A DNA stretch of 22,866 nucleotides from the IMG/VR virus record IMGVR_UViG_3300004805_000033, positions 1-22,866 of that record. One strand, given 5' to 3'. The notes under the pieces were generated by a model that saw nothing but the letters and a program-made list of their open reading frames with translations, did no database searches and was not told where the DNA came from. The stretch comes from a virus. Positions 2,475 through 11,854 of the stretch are shown here, piece by piece. The position numbers and the translations under genes are program-made. Positions within the stretch are counted from its first letter, which is position 1; each line of letters opens with the position of its first letter.

Positions 2475-4838
2475 ATGGCTCTAGTAGTCAAGGATCGGGT
2501 CCAGGAAACTACCACCACGAGTGGTACAGGTACACTTACGCTCGCAGGAGCAATTGCTGGGTATCAAGCCTTTTCTAGCGCCATAGGTAATAGCAATACT
2601 ACGTTCTATACAATCTATGATAACATAGCACAAGTATGGGAAGTGGGTATTGGTACTGTAGGCCCTAGTACTTTAGCTCGTACTACAGTTCTATCTAACT
2701 CATCGGGTACTACATCTCCTATATCGTTACCTGGTAATGCAGCTGCTGTATTCTGTACTTATCCTGCTGAACAATCTATTAACTATGATGCCAACGGCGT
2801 AGCTACTATTGGTTCTACTCTTAGTTATTCAGATACTGGGATTATTGGATCTTTTGCTTCTACAGTTGCTGGCTATAATCAAGTCATTATTCAGAATAAA
2901 AGTAATGCTACAAATGCATCTTCTAACATAAATGTATCTAATGATACTTCTACATCAAGTGCTGGATATGCTGAATTAGGCATTAACTCTTCTACGTTCA
3001 CTGGTACTGGATCATTTAATCTTCCGAATGCTTCGTATCTAGCTTCTGCGTCTACTGATTTAACTATCGGTACATATGGCGCATATAACGTTCACTTTGT
3101 AACTAATAGCAACGCTACTGATGCGATGACCATCTTTAATTCAGGCGGTGTGTCATTAGGTGGATATGGCGATCCTGGTATTGGTACTTTATATGCTAAT
3201 AACGTATACGTAGGTTTTAATACCATTACAGCAGCTGCTGGCACTACAATATTAACTAATGCTTCTGCGGGTTGGCAAAGTGTTGTGGGTACAAATACTC
3301 AAACAATTCAATTACCTGTTGCTACAACATTATTTAAAGGCTTTGCGTTTACTGTAACAAGTAGTAGTACTGGTGCGGTGACTATTAAAGATAATGCATC
3401 TGCCACTATTGATACCGTTGTTACTGGCGGTTCAGCTATTTTAGTACTAACAAACAATAGTACTTCCGCAGGTACATGGGTAGCTTATAGTTATATACCG
3501 GCTAGTTACGACTTTAGTGTAACTACTGCTAATTTTGGTGGTGCCGCAATTACTAATGCGCTTTGGAATGGTACAACAATTGGTACAGGTTATGGTGGTA
3601 CAGGGTTAACTACATTTGCTGCGGCTAACAATGCTATCTATTCAACATCAAGTTCAGCTTTAGCTGCGGGTACATTACCTATTGCAGCTGGCGGTACAGC
3701 GGCTACTACGTTTACAGCTAACGGTGTTATATATGGTAACGGCACATCTGCATTAGGTGTTACAGCAGCAGGTACTACAGGACAAGTTTTGATAGGTAAT
3801 ACAGGCGCTGCTCCATCATGGTCAACAATTTCTGGTTCTTTAGTTAGCTCATTCCAAACATCATTAAGTGGACTTACACCAAGTACAGCAACAACAGGTG
3901 CGGTTACTTTAGCAGGTACTTTAGGTGCTACATCAGGTGGTACAGGACTAGGTACTTATACTACAGGCGATATTATTTATGCTTCAGCTACGAATACAAT
4001 ATCTAAATTAGGTATTGGGGCGACAAATAAAGTATTAACCGTTGCTGGCGGAATTCCTTCATGGGCAGATACACAAAGCACTATGGTATATCCAGGTATT
4101 GGTATTCCTAATTCGACAGGAACTGCATGGGGTACATCTTATTCAACAACAGGTTCAGGCACAGTCGTAGCTTTAGCTACAAGTCCTACATTCGTAACAT
4201 CTATTACAGCTCCACTACATTTAGGTGGTACAACTGCTTCATCAACACTTACACTACAATCAACTTCAGGTGTGGGTACAACGGATTCTATAGCTCTAAA
4301 AGTAGGTAATAACGGCGCTACAACAGGTTTAAATATTTCAAGTGCAGGCGTTACAACATTATCATCAGCGCTTCCAGTAGGTTCAGGCGGTACAGGACAA
4401 ACATCATATACAGATGGTCAATTACTTATTGGTAATACAACAGGTAATACATTAACTAAAGCCTCTTTAACAGCGGGTACAGGCATTTCAATTACGCCTG
4501 GTTCTGGTTCAATTACGATTGCAACTACTTCAACTGGTGCATCAATTACTAATGATACAACAACAGCAACAGCTGAATATCCACTCTTTGCAGCAGCCAC
4601 TACAGGTTCATTAGCTACTGTTTATACAAGTAATGCTAACTATTTATTCACGCCATCAACAGCTGAATTACAGGCTAAAGAATTTAAAGCTACAAACGGT
4701 ATATATGCATATAATGCAACAGTAAATTCAAGTTATACAATTCCTACGGGATATAACGCATTAAATGCAGGTCCTATGATTGTTGCGGGAGGAGCTACTG
4801 TAACTGTTTCTACAGGATCGGTTTGGACCATATTATAA
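2475..4838 (+). CDS. Large tail fibre with GGTG-type repeats
   Basis: A 787-residue protein. The N-terminal domain (about 1-105) begins MALVVKDRVQETTTTSGTGT and includes a WEVGIGT strand and a VFCTYPAE end. That domain is common at the virion-attached end of phage fibres. The middle is Thr/Ser/Gly-rich. From about residue 370 to 690 a loose module recurs: GGTG or GGTA (near 375, 406, 488 and 637), followed by VIYGNGTS or LLIGNTTG, then variants of GQVL.....APSW or LTAGTGISIT. The last 90 residues (TGSLATVYTSNANYLF...SSYTIPTGYNALNAGPMIVAGG) match a typical fibre C-terminus. It is probably a trimeric receptor-contact or shaft protein. The next gene begins one base after the stop with no strong SD. 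Confidence 0.8.
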   Translation: MALVVKDRVQETTTTSGTGTLTLAGAIAGYQAFSSAIGNSNTTFYTIYDNIAQVWEVGIGTVGPSTLARTTVLSNSSGTTSPISLPGNAAAVFCTYPAEQSINYDANGVATIGSTLSYSDTGIIGSFASTVAGYNQVIIQNKSNATNASSNINVSNDTSTSSAGYAELGINSSTFTGTGSFNLPNASYLASASTDLTIGTYGAYNVHFVTNSNATDAMTIFNSGGVSLGGYGDPGIGTLYANNVYVGFNTITAAAGTTILTNASAGWQSVVGTNTQTIQLPVATTLFKGFAFTVTSSSTGAVTIKDNASATIDTVVTGGSAILVLTNNSTSAGTWVAYSYIPASYDFSVTTANFGGAAITNALWNGTTIGTGYGGTGLTTFAAANNAIYSTSSSALAAGTLPIAAGGTAATTFTANGVIYGNGTSALGVTAAGTTGQVLIGNTGAAPSWSTISGSLVSSFQTSLSGLTPSTATTGAVTLAGTLGATSGGTGLGTYTTGDIIYASATNTISKLGIGATNKVLTVAGGIPSWADTQSTMVYPGIGIPNSTGTAWGTSYSTTGSGTVVALATSPTFVTSITAPLHLGGTTASSTLTLQSTSGVGTTDSIALKVGNNGATTGLNISSAGVTTLSSALPVGSGGTGQTSYTDGQLLIGNTTGNTLTKASLTAGTGISITPGSGSITIATTSTGASITNDTTTATAEYPLFAAATTGSLATVYTSNANYLFTPSTAELQAKEFKATNGIYAYNATVNSSYTIPTGYNALNAGPMIVAGGATVTVSTGSVWTIL

Positions 4839-4839
4839 A

Positions 4840-5988
4840 ATGTACGGTATAAGTCCATATGCTCAAGCACCTTTTGCTTCAATTAATACGGTCTCTTACT
4901 TTTTAAATTTAACAGAGAACATTGGTGTAGCAGATAGTAGTACTCAAACTTGGACGTTTGGATTTAGTATTGCTGAAAATGTAACTGTAAATGATATTAA
5001 TTCACAAGCGGGTATCTTTATTGGTACTATTGTTGAAAGAATAGGTGTAGATGATTCGAGTACTCAACAAAGCACATTTTTGCAAACGCTTTCTGAGAAT
5101 GTTACATTAGATAATACACAAGATATAGCAGCACAATTTAGTGTCACTAGAACTGAAAATGTTAACTTAGATGATTCATCAGTACAATATTTTGCGGCAT
5201 TAGAAACTCGTACTGAAAATTTCTATATGGATGATATAAGAGCGATAGCAGCTCAGTACTTAGAGTCTATAACTGAAAATAGTAATTTAAATGATACACC
5301 AAGTATTACAGCACAATTTGCAACAAGTGTAATAGAGAACATAGATTTACAAGATTTACCAACTATTTTTGCTAACTTTGTAGCAAGTAGAACTGAAGAT
5401 ATTACAGTAGCAGATATTGCATTAATATCAGACATGTTCTTCTTTGATATAACAGAGTCAATCACTGTAGATGATGCAAGAGAGATTGCGGCTCAGTACT
5501 TAGAGTCTATAACTGAAAATAGTAATTTGAATGATTCACAAAGTATTACAGCGCAGTTTGCACAAAGTATTATTGAAAATGTTACGATGGATGATGCGGC
5601 TACTGTATTTGCAAACTTTATAGCCTCTAGAACCGAAGTTATAACAATGGCTGATGTTGGAGTCATCATTCAGATATTCTTTGCAGATGTTATAGAGTCA
5701 TTTACAGTAGATAATACAAATAGTAGTCAGGCAGGGTTTGTAGTTAATGTTGTTGAAAACTTTAATCCTAATACTGTTTATAGTGTAAGAGCAGACCTTA
5801 ATTTTACAATTGATGAAGTATTCTACATGTTAGATGTACTTTGTTATAACGGCTGGTTTAGAATTGATGATAGTCAAGTAGCTTCATGGAGTGTAATACC
5901 GGGTCCAGGAGCAGCAGGATGGAATACTATATCGACTACCCAAGTACCAAGTTGGGGCAATATTGACACAAAACAACCTTGTAGTTAA
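4840..5988 (+). CDS. Virion protein built from sixteen 20-residue repeats
   Basis: A 382-residue protein. After a short lead (1-16), residues 17-336 form sixteen units of exactly 20 residues. Each unit runs roughly (AxQF)xxSx(T/V/I)EN..(L/V)(D/N)D...(I). Glu is present at 26, 46, 66 and every 20 residues to 326. Position 32 and its 20-residue successors hold Asp, with one Asn at 292. An aromatic residue sits six before the Glu in most units. The fixed register suggests a regular solenoid or fibrous shaft. The acidic ladders could bind cations, which is inference. The C-terminus (338-375) holds two copies of GW..I...QV.SW..I. The protein lies between fibre genes, so a fibre or tail-surface role is likely. 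The family is not recognised by name. Confidence 0.75.
   Translation: MYGISPYAQAPFASINTVSYFLNLTENIGVADSSTQTWTFGFSIAENVTVNDINSQAGIFIGTIVERIGVDDSSTQQSTFLQTLSENVTLDNTQDIAAQFSVTRTENVNLDDSSVQYFAALETRTENFYMDDIRAIAAQYLESITENSNLNDTPSITAQFATSVIENIDLQDLPTIFANFVASRTEDITVADIALISDMFFFDITESITVDDAREIAAQYLESITENSNLNDSQSITAQFAQSIIENVTMDDAATVFANFIASRTEVITMADVGVIIQIFFADVIESFTVDNTNSSQAGFVVNVVENFNPNTVYSVRADLNFTIDEVFYMLDVLCYNGWFRIDDSQVASWSVIPGPGAAGWNTISTTQVPSWGNIDTKQPCS
4888..5847 (+). repeat. Sixteen tandem 60-bp (20-residue) coding repeats
   Basis: The 60-bp units encode residues 17-336 without any length change. They are strongly diverged at DNA level but keep Glu at unit position 10 and Asp (once Asn) at unit position 16. 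The strict length implies selection on a structural period. Confidence 0.85.
5248..5727 (+). repeat. Tandem 240-bp duplication within the 20-residue repeat array
   Basis: Units 7-10 (5248-5487) and 11-14 (5488-5727) are copies of one four-unit block. The 38 bases at 5251-5288 and 5491-5528 are identical, beginning GCTCAGTACTTAGAGTCTAT. The following units remain recognisably paired (TAQF with TAQF, FANF with FANF). This looks like a fairly recent four-unit expansion. Confidence 0.8.
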
Positions 5989-6020: not shown

Positions 6021-7097
6021 ATGGCAAGCACCTATTCACCACTTAAAATAGAACTCATCGGGACAGGCGAACAGTCTGGTACCTGGGGTTCAACCACGAA
6101 TACCAATTTAGGTACTGCTCTTGAACAGGCTATTACAGGTACAGGCGATGTTACTTTTTCAAGTGGCGACGTTACTTTAACGTTAACTGACACTAATACT
6201 TCTCAAACAGCTCGTAATCTAAGACTTAACTTAGTAGGCACAATCAGTGCCCCACAAGATTTAATCGTACCTAATATTGAGAAATTATACTTAGTTAACA
6301 ATACTTTAACTGATTATGTCACTATTAAAAACACAACTGGGACTGGCGTATCTATCCCACCTGGTGGATCTACGTTCGTATTTAATGATGGTACAGATAT
6401 TACTGAAACTATTACTGCCCTACCTGGTGGTTTAGTTCTTCCAATTACAAATGGTGGTACTGGCGCTACTAATGCTTCAGATGCAAGAGATAATTTAGGA
6501 CTAACTATTGGTACTGATGTTGAAGCTTATAATGCTAACCTCGTAGACTCTACTGCAAATACTACTTTTTCTGGGGATAATACTTTTTCTGGTGATAATT
6601 CTTTTTCTGGGGATAATACTTTTTCTGGAACTAATTCATTTTCAGATACAACGACCTTTACAGGACAAGCTTTATTTGATGGTACTTCAGCAATTCTTTC
6701 ATCTAAATTTACTAATGGCTTAGAATTAATTACCATATCTGCTACAGCTGCTACAGGAACGATCAATTATGATGTGACGACTCAGTCTGTGATATACTAT
6801 ACATCAGATGCTGTTGCTAATTGGACAGTTAATTTCAGAGCGTCAAGCGGTACTACTTTGAATGCCTCGATGGCAACCGGTGAAGTGATTACAGTTGTAT
6901 TTTTAGTGACTTTAGGCGCCACCGCATACTATAATACTGCAATAACCATTGATGGAAATCCTATAACCCCTGTTTATTTAGGGCAAACTGCTTGGACTTC
7001 TGGATATGCTAGTGCATTAAATTCATACACATATACTATTATTAAAACCGGTTCAGCTACCTTTAAAGTATTAGCTGTACAAGCAGCGTTTGCATAA
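6021..7097 (+). CDS. Tail fibre protein with GGTG motif and hexapeptide linker
   Basis: A 358-residue protein started by a good SD. Residues 1-130 form an N-terminal domain beginning MASTYSPLKIELIGTGEQSG and containing GTWGSTTNTNLGTALEQAI. That domain is very common in phage fibre genes. Next comes LPITNGGTGATNASDARDNLGL (about 142-163), the classic fibre motif. A six-residue repeat follows (182-211, TFSGDN and variants). The C-terminal module (about 218-358: ISATAATGTINYDVTTQSV, ATAYYN..ITIDGN) is homologous to the end of the next protein. A role in host contact or fibre assembly is likely. The paralogous C-terminus suggests duplication or module exchange between the two genes. Confidence 0.8.
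   Translation: MASTYSPLKIELIGTGEQSGTWGSTTNTNLGTALEQAITGTGDVTFSSGDVTLTLTDTNTSQTARNLRLNLVGTISAPQDLIVPNIEKLYLVNNTLTDYVTIKNTTGTGVSIPPGGSTFVFNDGTDITETITALPGGLVLPITNGGTGATNASDARDNLGLTIGTDVEAYNANLVDSTANTTFSGDNTFSGDNSFSGDNTFSGTNSFSDTTTFTGQALFDGTSAILSSKFTNGLELITISATAATGTINYDVTTQSVIYYTSDAVANWTVNFRASSGTTLNASMATGEVITVVFLVTLGATAYYNTAITIDGNPITPVYLGQTAWTSGYASALNSYTYTIIKTGSATFKVLAVQAAFA
6564..6653 (+). repeat. Five 18-bp repeats encoding TFSGDN hexapeptides
   Basis: Five units of 18 bases encode TFSGDN, TFSGDN, SFSGDN, TFSGTN and SFSDTT. The first four are nearly identical in DNA, for example CTTTTTCTGGGGATAATA. Slipped-strand length change of this linker is plausible. Confidence 0.85.
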
Positions 7098-7119: not shown

Positions 7120-7758
7120 ATGGCAATAACATTAGACGGCACCAGTGGGATAACCGCCCCAGCCATAGTAAGTTTAACTACTGCACTTAGTGTACCAAAT
7201 GGGGGTACAGGCGCTACTACATTCTCCTCAGGGGCTTTATTAAAAGGCGCAGGCGCTAGTGCAGTTACAACAGGTACAGCGGGTACAGATTATGTAGCAC
7301 CAGGTACAGCTACAACATTCACAGCTAAACAAACATTTAATGGGGCAACAGCAACTTTAGCTTCTGCATTTATTAATGCTACTGAAACATCAACTATATC
7401 CGCTACAGCAGCTACAGGCACAATCAACTATGATGTAACTACACAGTCAGTGCTTTATTACACAACATCAGCTTCAGCTAACTGGACACTTAATATTAGA
7501 GGTAATGGTACAACATCTTTAAATACTTTAATGTCTACTAATGATTCACTTACAGTCGTATTTTTAGTATCTCAGGGTGCTACAGCTTATTATAATAATG
7601 CATTGACTATTGACGGAAACTCTGTCACTCCAAAATATCAAGGTGGCACTGCGTGGTCAAGTGGTAATGCTTCAGGTGTAGATGCTTACTCATACACAAT
7701 TGTTAAAACAGGTTCAGCCGCTTTCACAGTATTTGCAGCACAAACACAATTTAAATAG
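7120..7758 (+). CDS. Short tail fibre sharing the C-terminal module of its neighbour
   Basis: A 212-residue protein with a strong SD (AAGGAG, 7106-7111). The N-terminus MAITLDGTSGITAP is a widespread phage fibre start, followed by LSVPNGGTGATTF and LLKGAGASAVTTGTAGTDYV (about 25-60). Residues 73-212 align throughout with residues 218-358 of the preceding protein: FNG/FDG, then identical ISATAATGTINYDVTTQSV, then GATAYYN, TIDGN, TAW.SG.AS and YTI.KTGSA. The pair are two shafts or attachment domains joined to a common tip. It could be an alternative fibre or a co-assembling subunit. No catalytic motif is visible. Confidence 0.78.
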   Translation: MAITLDGTSGITAPAIVSLTTALSVPNGGTGATTFSSGALLKGAGASAVTTGTAGTDYVAPGTATTFTAKQTFNGATATLASAFINATETSTISATAATGTINYDVTTQSVLYYTTSASANWTLNIRGNGTTSLNTLMSTNDSLTVVFLVSQGATAYYNNALTIDGNSVTPKYQGGTAWSSGNASGVDAYSYTIVKTGSAAFTVFAAQTQFK

Positions 7759-7768
7759 GATTTAAAAT

Positions 7769-10700
7769 ATGTCACTATTATCCCGTCTAGCCGTAACTGC
7801 AGCAAGAGCTTATGGTATTCTTTCATCCAATTCTAAAAATGTAAACGCATCTTATCTTGTTGTAGCTGGTGGGGGCGGTGCTGGTAGTAATGCAGCAACT
7901 TACAATGGCGGAACAGGTGGTGGCGGTGCTGGTGGTTTTTTAAATTCAACATTTACATTATCCATATTAAATACTTATACTATTACCGTAGGTGCAGGAG
8001 GAGCAGCAGGAGCTTCTTCTACAGTTGGAAGTAATGGAGCTAACTCAATAATTTTAGGAACAGGTCTTACTACAGTAACTTCAGTAGGTGGCGGAGGTGG
8101 TGGTAAATCAGGACCGGCACCTTCAGGCTCAGTAAGTCCTGGAAGTTCTGGTGGGTCTGGTGGCGGAGGTGGAGGAACTGGAACATTTACAAATACTGGA
8201 GGTAGTGCTACTTCTGGTCAAGGAAATGCTGGAGGAACAGCAACTCAAGCTGGAGCAAATTATGGTGGTGCTGGCGGTGGCGGTGCTGGAGCTGTTGGTG
8301 GCTCTACAACAAATTCAAATAGTGGTGCTAATGGTGGAGTTGGTTCTGCATCTTCTATTAGCGGTTCTTCAGTAACTTATGCTGGCGGTGGCGGAGGTGG
8401 TGGTTATTCGCCAGGAACTGCTGGAACAGGCGGTTCAGGTGGAGGAGGAAATGGCTCAAACAGCACAAATGGCACAGCTGGCACAGCTAATTTAGGTGGT
8501 GGGGGTGGCGGTGCAGGTTCAGCTCCCGCAGGTGCATTAGGAGGTGCAGGCGGTTCAGGCGTAGTTATCATATCTTACACATCTGCTACACCTAAATTCG
8601 TAGGTGGCACTCTTACTACTTCAGGTGGTAACCAAATACATACATTCACATCTTCAGGATCATTAAGTCCTCTTACACCTGTAACAGCTAGTTATTTAGT
8701 CGTAGCTGGTGGTGGTTCAGGAGGTGCAAATGCAGGTGGCGGTGGTGGTGCTGGCGGACTTTTAACTTCATCTACTACAATATATTCAGGTGCTACTTAT
8801 GTAGTTACTGTAGGTGCAGGTGGAGCAGGTGTAACTGGAGGTGGCGCTCCATATCCAGTAGGTATTAGTGGCTCTAATTCATCTTTAGCTGGAACAGGAT
8901 TAACAACAGTAACTTCCACAGGTGGTGGTGGTGGCGGTTCTTATGCTAACTCTACTGCAAGAAATGGTTTAAGCGGTGGCTCTGGTGGTGGTGCTGGTAA
9001 CTTTGGTGGAACAACTGACGGAACTGCTGGTACAGGTACAAGTGGACAAGGTAGTAACGGTGGTGCATCATTTGCCTCAAACTTTAATGGTGGCGGTGGA
9101 GGCGGAGCAAGTGCTGTTGGTGGAAATGCTACATCTCCTGTAGCTGGTACTGGTGGAGCAGGAACTGCGTCAAGTATAACAGGTTCATCTGTTACTTATG
9201 CTGGTGGTGGTGGTGGAGGTGGCGGTAATACTACTTCTGTAGCTTCAGGCGGTGCTGGTGGTGGTGGAGCAGGTGGCTCTACAAGTCCTACTTCAGCAGG
9301 AACAGCAGGAACAGCTAACACAGGTGGTGGAGGCGGTGGTTCTTCAAGCGGTAGTTCAGGTTCAGGTTCAGGCGGTAGCGGAACAGTTATCATCTCATAC
9401 GCTGGCTCACAAGTATTTAACGGTGGTCTAGTCACATCATCAGGTGGTAATACTATCCATACATTTAACGCTACAGGTGCTTTAACACCATTAACTAATA
9501 ACCTAAATAACTCTTTAAGGTTTAGAAGTAGTGCTAGTGCTTATTTATCTAGAACTTTTGCAAGTTCAGGCACAAATAATAAAATTCAAACATTCTCTGC
9601 TTGGGTAAAAAGAGGTCTTTTAAGTAGTTCAACAGATTATAGATTAATGGGTGGGTATGATGGAAGCTCTGCTAATTCTACAGAAATTAATTTTAATAAT
9701 GATTCTTTAAGACTTGAATTTGGTGGTGCTGCAAATAATCCAGTAATAACAACACAAGTATTTAGAGACCCCAGTGCTTGGTATCATATTGTAGTTGCAA
9801 TAGATACAACTCAAGCTACAGCAGCTAACAGAGTTAAAATGTATGTTAATGGTAACCAAGTAACTGCTTTTTCAACTGCAACTTATCCAGCACAAAATGC
9901 TCTTTCACAACTAACAAGTGCAAATGTTAATAATCGTATTGGTTCAAGTTGGTCAGGCTCTAACCCTTTTGATGGATACATGACTGACATCAACTTCATT
10001 GACGGTCAAGCACTAGAACCCTATTACTTTGGTAACAATGACGCATACGGTAATTGGAAACCAATTAAATACACAGGTATGTATGGCACTAATGGTTTCT
10101 ACTTAAACTTTGCTGATACTTCAGCTCTTACAACTTCATCTAATGCAGGTCTAGGTAAAGACACAAGTGGCAACGGAAACTATTGGGCAACTAACAACAT
10201 CTCAATTACTGCTGGCGTAACCTATGATGCTATGACAGATGTGCCTACTAATACAAGTGCAACTGTGGCTAATTATTGTGTGTTAAATCCTTTAAATGCA
10301 GCATCTAACCAAGCAATAAGTTTTGCAAATTTAAGAGTTATAGAATCAGCTGGTACTGCTGCGACAAGAGCATATTCTACTTTTGAATTACCTTCTAGTA
10401 AAATTTATTTTGAAGTAACTATGACAACCGCTTCATCAACAAACATGATGGGCGTTGGCACTTCTGGAAATTTAAGTAATTATCCTGGACAAGATGCAAA
10501 TAGTTGGGCATATCATTCTGCTGGAATACTTTATAATAATTCAAATACAACTTTAGTTACAGCAGCAAGCACTGCTGGTGATATTGTGGGTGTTGCTGTT
10601 GATATGAGTGCAGGAAAAATATGGTTTTCTGTAAATAATACTTATGTTGCTTCTGGTAATCCATCAGCAGGAACAAACCCAGCTTTTTCAGGATTAACAG

Positions 10701-11854
10701 GTTCTTTATTTCCAATAGTAAGAGCATACACTTCAACAATGGATATTAACTTTGGTCAACGACCATTTTCTTACACACCACCTACAGGCTTTGTAGCACT
10801 AAACACATATAACTTACCTACACCTACTATATTGCAAGGTAATTTGTATATGGATGCAACGCTATATACACAAAATGGTGCAGCAACTAATGTTGTTGTA
10901 AACGCAGGTCAGTTTAAACCTGATTTGGTATGGTTAAAATGTAGAAGTAATGCTGGAACATATAATGTATTAACAGATACTGTTAGAGGTATAGCTAATT
11001 CTTTATATAGCAATACTACTACTGTTGAAAATAGTGATGGATATAACTTTTTTAATTCATTTAACTCTAATGGTTTTAGTTTGACACTTGGTGATAGTGG
11101 AACTAATAGCACATCAGGAAGAACTCAAGTAGGTTGGCAATGGCAAGCTGGTCAAGGTTCAACATCATCTAACACTTCAGGCTCTATTACATCTACTGTA
11201 TCTGTAAATACTACTGCTGGGTTTAGTGTGGTGACTTATACATCACAAGCAAGTGGAACTGCTACATTTGGTCATGGATTAGGTGTTGCACCATCAATGA
11301 TATTTTTAAAAGGTAGAAATCTTGTTGGTGGATGGTATGTATATCATTCTGCATTAGGCGGAACTAAATATTTAGCATTACAATCAACTGGCGCAGCAAC
11401 TACAGCCGCTGATGGATGGAATAATACAAACCCAACAAGCACAGTTGTTTCTGTAGGTAATGGTTATGCTGGAAGTTATAACATGGTAGCTTATTGCTGG
11501 GCAGAAATAGCAGGGTTTAGTAAGTTTGGTTCTTACACAGGTAATGGTTCTACAGATGGTCCTTTTGTTTACACAGGATTTAGACCTAAATGGATTATGA
11601 TAAAAAATACAACAACCGTAGGTCAAGCATGGTTTATTTATGATAGTGCTAGAAGCACATATAATTTAGTTACTGCTTTTTTACAACCAAATACTAGTAA
11701 TGCAGAAGCAGGAAGCTCTGTAGATAATCCTATAGATATATTGTCAAATGGATTTAAAATTCGTTATACCAATACAGGCACAAATACAAGTAGTGATGTA
11801 TATATTTTTGCAGCCTACGCAGAAAACCCTTTCAAAAACGCTAACGCAAGATAA
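7769..11854 (+). CDS. Giant multi-domain adhesin: Gly-rich x2, LamG-like, SPRY-like, phage C-terminal domain
   Basis: A 1361-residue protein with an SD (AGGA, 7757-7760) overlapping the upstream stop. Domains in order: short lead 1-26; Gly-rich module A about 27-306 (from ASYLVVAGGGG) and module B about 307-576 (from ASYLVVAGGGS), each ending in GG...TSGGN.IHTF; LamG/concanavalin-like region about 579-785 (SLRFRSSASAYLSRTF, FSAWVKRG, WYHIVVAIDTTQ, VKMYVNGNQV, FIDGQ); SPRY-like region about 860-1012 (KIYFEVTM, GDIVGVAVDMSAGKIWFSVN, YTPPTGFVAL). The C-terminal domain (about 1025-1361) carries FKPDLVWLKCRSNAG, TFGHGLGVAPSMIFLKGR and GFSKFGSYTGNGSTDGPFVY, and ends ENPFKNANAR. I recognise this last domain from marine phages (DUF7483-like). 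The whole reads as a host-surface glycan-binding adhesin. Domain edges are approximate. Confidence 0.8.
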   Translation: MSLLSRLAVTAARAYGILSSNSKNVNASYLVVAGGGGAGSNAATYNGGTGGGGAGGFLNSTFTLSILNTYTITVGAGGAAGASSTVGSNGANSIILGTGLTTVTSVGGGGGGKSGPAPSGSVSPGSSGGSGGGGGGTGTFTNTGGSATSGQGNAGGTATQAGANYGGAGGGGAGAVGGSTTNSNSGANGGVGSASSISGSSVTYAGGGGGGGYSPGTAGTGGSGGGGNGSNSTNGTAGTANLGGGGGGAGSAPAGALGGAGGSGVVIISYTSATPKFVGGTLTTSGGNQIHTFTSSGSLSPLTPVTASYLVVAGGGSGGANAGGGGGAGGLLTSSTTIYSGATYVVTVGAGGAGVTGGGAPYPVGISGSNSSLAGTGLTTVTSTGGGGGGSYANSTARNGLSGGSGGGAGNFGGTTDGTAGTGTSGQGSNGGASFASNFNGGGGGGASAVGGNATSPVAGTGGAGTASSITGSSVTYAGGGGGGGGNTTSVASGGAGGGGAGGSTSPTSAGTAGTANTGGGGGGSSSGSSGSGSGGSGTVIISYAGSQVFNGGLVTSSGGNTIHTFNATGALTPLTNNLNNSLRFRSSASAYLSRTFASSGTNNKIQTFSAWVKRGLLSSSTDYRLMGGYDGSSANSTEINFNNDSLRLEFGGAANNPVITTQVFRDPSAWYHIVVAIDTTQATAANRVKMYVNGNQVTAFSTATYPAQNALSQLTSANVNNRIGSSWSGSNPFDGYMTDINFIDGQALEPYYFGNNDAYGNWKPIKYTGMYGTNGFYLNFADTSALTTSSNAGLGKDTSGNGNYWATNNISITAGVTYDAMTDVPTNTSATVANYCVLNPLNAASNQAISFANLRVIESAGTAATRAYSTFELPSSKIYFEVTMTTASSTNMMGVGTSGNLSNYPGQDANSWAYHSAGILYNNSNTTLVTAASTAGDIVGVAVDMSAGKIWFSVNNTYVASGNPSAGTNPAFSGLTGSLFPIVRAYTSTMDINFGQRPFSYTPPTGFVALNTYNLPTPTILQGNLYMDATLYTQNGAATNVVVNAGQFKPDLVWLKCRSNAGTYNVLTDTVRGIANSLYSNTTTVENSDGYNFFNSFNSNGFSLTLGDSGTNSTSGRTQVGWQWQAGQGSTSSNTSGSITSTVSVNTTAGFSVVTYTSQASGTATFGHGLGVAPSMIFLKGRNLVGGWYVYHSALGGTKYLALQSTGAATTAADGWNNTNPTSTVVSVGNGYAGSYNMVAYCWAEIAGFSKFGSYTGNGSTDGPFVYTGFRPKWIMIKNTTTVGQAWFIYDSARSTYNLVTAFLQPNTSNAEAGSSVDNPIDILSNGFKIRYTNTGTNTSSDVYIFAAYAENPFKNANAR
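7847..9496 (+). repeat. Tandem pair of Gly-rich modules (about 280 and 270 residues)
   Basis: Module A is 7847-8686 and module B is 8687-9496. They share the order ASYLVVAGGG, a YTITVGAGGA or YVVTVGAGGA strand, GTGLTTVTS.GGGGGG, SSIxGSSVTYAGGGGGG, and a TIHTF or QIHTF end. They are an ancient in-frame duplication with heavy GGT/GGC/GGA codon runs, which may also mediate recombination. Confidence 0.8.

Follow-up and report, generated by a model that had tools for sequence, protein, structure and literature searches.

What kind of structure is built by a viral protein whose acidic residues return at the same place every twenty residues, and what would such a protein do for the virus? The question is raised by one gene of the window analysed here, i.e., the whole stretch of DNA under study, a virus record of 22,866 bases. 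Its product, P0001, is strongly acidic, with 31 Asp, 20 Glu, 9 Arg and 1 Lys, a pI of 4.05 and a net charge of -41. This acidity, the near-absence of Lys and a Trp-rich C-terminal module had been passed over in the initial annotation. The gene and its parts are the following:

4840..5988, + strand: coding sequence of P0001, an acidic 20-residue-repeat protein (type A slot protein, see below), 382 aa
4840..4887, + strand: N-terminal module, residues 1-16, MYGISPYAQAPFASIN (conserved form MFGxSxFAQAPFASLGG)
4888..5847, + strand: repeat array, residues 17-336, sixteen 20-residue units with Phe/Tyr at unit position 4, Glu at 10 and Asp at 16
5248..5487, + strand: four-unit block, units 7-10, residues 137-216, near-copy of the next block, single copy in the closest relatives
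5488..5727, + strand: four-unit block, units 11-14, residues 217-296, duplicate of block 5248..5487
5848..5985, + strand: C-terminal Trp module, GWFRIDDSQVASW...SWGNIDTKQPCS, with 11-residue repeats W..I..xQ

A repeat array constrained in length and in two acidic columns

The initial annotation had described sixteen exact 20-residue repeats at residues 17-336, and the units are indeed in register with zero indels: the lag-20 identity reaches 0.31, whereas none of 1000 shuffled sequences exceeds 0.14. The exactness holds for the length of the unit, which is always 20, and not for its sequence, with a mean pairwise identity between units of 28% and the last two units degenerate. The proposed Glu column at 26+20n (unit position 10) is found in 16/16 units, for which the chance probability is ~2e-22 after correction for 20 phases, and an aromatic residue does mark unit position 4 in most of them (14/16). 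The Asp column at 32+20n (unit position 16) had been credited with a single exception and has three (Asn92, Asn292 and Thr312), its 13/16 occurrences being still far above chance (~8e-12).

Residues 137-216 and 217-296 are identical at 51/80 amino acid and 171/240 nucleotide positions, that is, the array carries a four-unit internal duplication, which the initial annotation had also passed over. Its closest relatives, at 50-67% identity, are twelve-unit proteins without exactly these 80 duplicated residues. On this comparison of sequences, the sixteen units of P0001 arise from an in-frame 80-residue duplication.

Relatives were sought in viral contigs by scans seeded with the downstream gene, an N-terminal DNA motif, a repeat motif and one relative, after which the ORFs of the fetched contigs were searched with a two-unit HMM derived from P0001; a sliding-window alignment of the repeats was dropped because MAFFT shifted the overlapping windows. 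In this way, 118 non-redundant relatives were collected from IMG/VR contigs. When 78 of them are aligned, Glu10 is found in 99% and Asp16 in 83% of the units, so both acidic columns are conserved throughout the family, the Asp column more weakly than first claimed. Measured between the start Met and the C-terminal GW, 85 of 90 relatives have a length of 16-20 modulo 20, twelve units being present in around 70 of the relatives measured, and dN/dS over 22 pairs has a maximum of 0.34, with none at or above 1. Together with these whole-unit steps in length, the median dN/dS of 0.24 indicates a genuine protein under constraint, in which units are gained and lost as wholes. In one contig (L051, 1632-5963), the type A repeats and the Trp module form the C-terminus of a 1444-aa ORF starting MANRYWVGGAGTWDN, naturally fused in this way to a large repetitive protein that has no library matches.

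The earlier reading could not name this repeat family, nor can the libraries: Pfam, PHROGs, NCBIfam and the PDB hold no credible match to P0001 or its relatives. The NCBIfam, Pfam and PHROG matches of the repeat protein are all sub-threshold or short (the best in PHROGs, of unknown function, has an E of 0.0017 over 21 residues), sequence searches of the PDB yielded chance-level matches only, and no profile of a known phage tail fibre family in Pfam or PHROGs matches P0001 itself. A tblastn search with P0001 of INPHARED (~50,000 phage records) returned nothing, even at E 10, and a scan of bacterial and archaeal genomes for the repeat and the N-terminal motif revealed no cellular relative. The N-terminal pattern matches in cellular genomes were mostly to a permease-like protein (Chloroflexota and other bacteria) or due to chance, and were rejected.

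A gene among tail genes

The immediate neighbours of P0001 are both fibre-type genes:

2475..4838, + strand: upstream neighbour, tail fibre protein (phrog_31660 tail fiber, E 1e-16)
6021..7097, + strand: downstream neighbour, the fibre-like TGEQSGTW gene, which marks the slot (phrog_31104, phrog_5906 and phrog_24210 tail fiber)

Further upstream, before the tail-fibre gene, are found an SU10-type adaptor (PF24175), phrog_644 and phrog_8123, while the TGEQSGTW gene is followed by a phrog_5906 paralogue, a Gly-rich/SPRY/DUF7483 protein and a lysozyme; a stabilisation or nozzle-type protein (phrog_3287) is also encoded downstream of P0001. A similar gene order exists in loci L228 and L254, the slot gene and its downstream neighbour are present in L274 as well, and a TGEQSGTW-type gene lies downstream in 104/125 type A loci. 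P0001 thus belongs to a virion/tail gene cluster, lying between fibre-type genes both in the window and in relatives, as is proper to the tail-associated structural class, and the flanking PHROG matches and this gene order support a tail-gene neighbourhood.

Several features of the neighbours deserve mention in their own right. A tandem 18/36-nt repeat at window positions 6553-6643 encodes FSGDN[TS] hexapeptides in the downstream gene. The genes at 6021-7097 and 7120-7758 have a C-terminal domain in common (phrog_5906), as if duplicated. At 7769-11854 a 1361-aa protein is encoded, with domains Gly_rich_2, SPRY and DUF7483, whose C-terminal half has relatives in Pelagibacter, Roseobacter and Methylophilales phages.

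Constant ends and dissimilar bodies

Elsewhere, the gene directly upstream of the TGEQSGTW gene usually encodes a tandem-repeat protein too, often with different repeats. Besides the type A protein, this slot is occupied by:

type B: 22-residue repeat, VTGVxGTxxLGxxTV
type C: 22-residue repeat, TLVGxAP
type D: 20-21-residue repeat, LTGVxASGAVGTV
type E: ~20-residue repeat

In the loci retrieved through the downstream gene alone, an HMM of the type A C-terminus recognises 28/40 proteins of type B, 6/8 of type C and 2/2 of type D, and one of the type A N-terminus recognises 8/40, 0/8 and 0/2, respectively. Loci fetched by the N-terminal motif were left out of the evidence on that end, for which they are biased. 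Slot proteins without the type A N-terminus have a different W/G-rich start, of the GWGxxxWG type. Common N- and C-terminal modules thus hold the slot proteins together as a family. As for the bodies between these ends, hhalign finds no significant similarity of type A repeats to those of type B or D; a type B-D likeness given by the same program was discarded, since reversed-profile controls were nearly as strong, which points to composition.

Between loci that differ in repeat type, the downstream gene can be 85-93% identical over 140 aa. As this domain is conserved in general, such an identity shows that the gene co-occurs with different bodies, and does not in itself show a recent exchange. 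Loci L053 (type D) and L065 (type B) share 89% DNA identity from inside the C-terminal Trp module into the next gene, no similarity having been found over the repeats, and an identity that starts inside the Trp module is as expected from recombination at this module. Altogether, these data suggest that the slot protein is an interchangeable rod on the phage tail.

Some slot loci present particularities of their own. A 1206-aa slot protein with type D 20-residue repeats (L185, 3490-7110, - strand) goes far above the usual twelve or so units. In podophage ctXG6705 (L085, MW202481.1), a slot-like protein encoded at 9065-9841 and annotated "serine-rich adhesin" has the same N-terminus MFGICSFSQAPFSSLAG and a Trp-repeat C-terminus, with yet another repeat body between them. 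Furthermore, some type B loci (L010, L011, L017, L021, L032, L036 and others) carry, between the slot gene and the TGEQSGTW gene, a conserved Cys-rich ORF of 66-73 aa with the motif ECxxCGMxVDAEEYxSGTCSDCG.

A putative beta-repeat shaft

We consider it, on balance, probable that P0001 is a structural protein associated with the tail of an aquatic podophage-like virus, with a beta-repeat shaft whose body can be swapped. The short N-terminal module would be its probable anchor, the twelve to sixteen 20-residue units would form the regular shaft, and the Trp/Gln 11-residue-repeat module would constitute a distal or oligomerising end. Each unit could be a two-armed beta-arch, with E10-x-[ILV]12-x-[LMV]14-x-D16 as arm a and [IQ]20-x-[AS]2-x-[FY]4-x-Q6 as arm b. 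Side chains of the same parity would share a face (E10, 12, 14 and D16 in arm a; 20, 2, 4 and 6 in arm b), and the stacking of successive units would produce ladders of Glu, of Asp and of aromatic residues. Those made of acids would presumably be tolerated only with cations, protonation or burial, and it counts against such a shaft that columns of unpaired Glu and Asp stack unfavourably unless they are protonated or cations are present. The shaft would be the exchangeable part of the molecule, phages with similar flanking genes carrying other 20-22-residue repeats between the same ends, and on the tail it may act in adhesion or as a spacer.

The initial annotation had proposed a regular rod, to be checked by structure prediction. 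The AlphaFold2 monomer built from 11 sequences is an all-beta structure in which each unit has two strands, at a pLDDT of 43.9; the one built from 78 sequences (pLDDT 49.8) is mostly irregular, with helices at unit positions 14-6 in a few units (local pLDDT 70-74). The low confidence and the absence of a regular beta rod from the deeper-alignment model speak against the beta shaft. The 11-sequence model matches the predicted structures of two uncharacterised uncultured-phage proteins (E 6e-8 and 8e-5), and in a Foldseek search of the PDB it has no match with E <0.2, many of the matches being beta-helices, uninterpretable at such model confidence. Because the two models are low in confidence and disagree, we infer, rather than read from them, the fold, the oligomeric state, the cation binding and the location on the virion.

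Covariation in the family alignment provides another line of evidence. Its strength follows the order i+2 > i+1 > i+4 > i+3 > i+6 > i+5, an alternation peaked at i+2 that is typical of strands and not of helices, and the odd/even split ranks 1/126 among two-colourings for arm 18-6 and 4/126 for arm 8-16. Part of this signal comes from the existence of two unit variants, DSSTQQSAFLQ and DxxxIxAQFAQ. Corresponding positions of different units covary equally strongly one and two units apart, and as this covariation does not decay with distance, it was not used as proof of stacking. The claim of a regular rod thus gains from the strand-like alternation and loses from the monomer models, and a regular rod on the virion is plausible, being better supported now by synteny, length quantisation and covariation.

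An alpha/beta or helical repeat, in which a helix over positions 14-6, capped by Asp16, would be followed by a short extended segment or loop at 7-13, is distinctly unlikely. The helices of the 78-sequence model agree with such a repeat, as do the amphipathic pattern 14, 17, 20, 4, 8 (hydrophobicity at 14, 17, 20, 4, 5 and 8 also suits an amphipathic helix), the N-cap-like D, E, N and S at position 16, and the sub-threshold matches of several members to helical Pfam families. However, the covariation maximum lies at i,i+2, with no peak at i+3, i+4 or i+7, most of the 78-sequence model is at pLDDT <60, and helices are unlikely in the Gly/Val/Thr-rich repeats of the slot equivalents.

Low pLDDT in both models, together with extreme acidity and few basic residues, could also be read as the mark of an intrinsically disordered acidic spacer or bristle; we deem this very improbable in view of the fixed hydrophobic positions 4, 8, 12 and 14, of a 20-residue step that is invariant over about a hundred proteins, and of purifying selection. 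An intertwined homotrimeric beta fibre in place of a single-chain solenoid is a stronger contender, though a doubtful one; as in the shafts of many phage fibres, every 20 residues of a chain would contribute two short strands, and the protein would be stable in trimeric form only. The gene sits among fibre genes, a failed monomer prediction is expected for an obligate oligomer, and the alternating covariation fits extended strands; nevertheless, known trimeric fibre repeats in Pfam or the PDB give no match.

Likeness to known systems

The single-chain beta-arch shaft that we prefer has its nearest analogue in the curlin (CsgA) repeats, which form a beta-arch solenoid with the motif N-x-Psi-x-Psi-x-Q (PMC10192328). 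Both have a ~20-23-residue repeat with two strand motifs, a variable number of whole units and conserved polar ladders at the arm ends, and the spacing of E10-x-Psi12-x-Psi14-x-D16 equals that of N-x-Psi-x-Psi-x-Q (PMC10192328), by analogy with which the type A protein would work like a curlin-type beta-arch solenoid. Two strands per unit, as in a curlin-like arch, appear in the low-confidence 11-sequence model and not in the 78-sequence one, and covariation supports strands. In contrast, the ladders are of Glu (99%) and Asp (83%) instead of Asn and Gln, so that the curlin motif itself is lacking, the unit is exactly 20 residues instead of 23 +/- 5, and the gene has phage tail genes as neighbours, neither CsgG nor CsgF being seen in the window. 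The Pfam curlin-repeat is absent from the matches of P0001 at E up to 1 and from the matches listed for the 78 relatives. An identification as curlin was rejected, neither the profile nor the defining residues being matched.

Two other repeat classes were discarded. The RTX/Ca2+-binding beta-roll likewise has regular acidic repeats, but the type A consensus has no Gly-rich nonapeptide GGxGxDxUx (GGxGxD), the period is of 20 residues and there is no Pfam match to RTX/hemolysin-type repeats. A pentapeptide repeat (quadrilateral beta-helix, A(D/N)LXX) disagrees with an identity in P0001 of 0.05 at lag 5 vs 0.31 at lag 20; matches of this type were limited to SV2C in the PDB (E 0.077, chance-level) and to weak Pfam matches in 3/78 members, the best with an E of 0.02 among the matches listed.

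Phage tail fibre and tailspike shafts are trimeric beta-repeat fibres with swappable parts. The slot proteins resemble them in their tail-gene neighbourhood, conserved N-terminus, repetitive middle, C-terminal module and recombination between phages, and differ in that the repeat body is exchanged while both ends are kept. On this reading, the type A protein would be a phage tail appendage with a repeat shaft, a known kind of structure. In phage DSL-LC04 (WJZ48131.1) and Pelagibacter phage HTVC023P (gp68), proteins annotated as hypothetical occupy the same slot, upstream of a TGEQSGTW-type gene; like P0001, they have tandem repeats and Trp-rich C-termini, though their repeats are of the 22-residue VTGVxGTxxLG-like type (type B) and not the E/D 20-residue unit.

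Biological significance

The type A family is common in aquatic tailed-phage contigs and absent from the family libraries checked. A broader proposal, which we put forward tentatively and with more doubt than conviction, is that the slot proteins represent an undescribed and widespread tail component of aquatic phages, with constant ends and an interchangeable repeat shaft in which unrelated 20-22-residue families replace one another, type A being a new beta-arch solenoid, about twelve coils long, with acidic ladders and a dependence on cations. The invariant Glu column and the fixed 20-residue step pose a sharp structural question, namely whether the stacked acids are cation-bound. If the arrangement of constant ends and variable shaft is true, phages would exchange the shaft of an appendage and not its tip alone, and such an exchange would bear on how abundant aquatic viruses meet the surfaces of their hosts.
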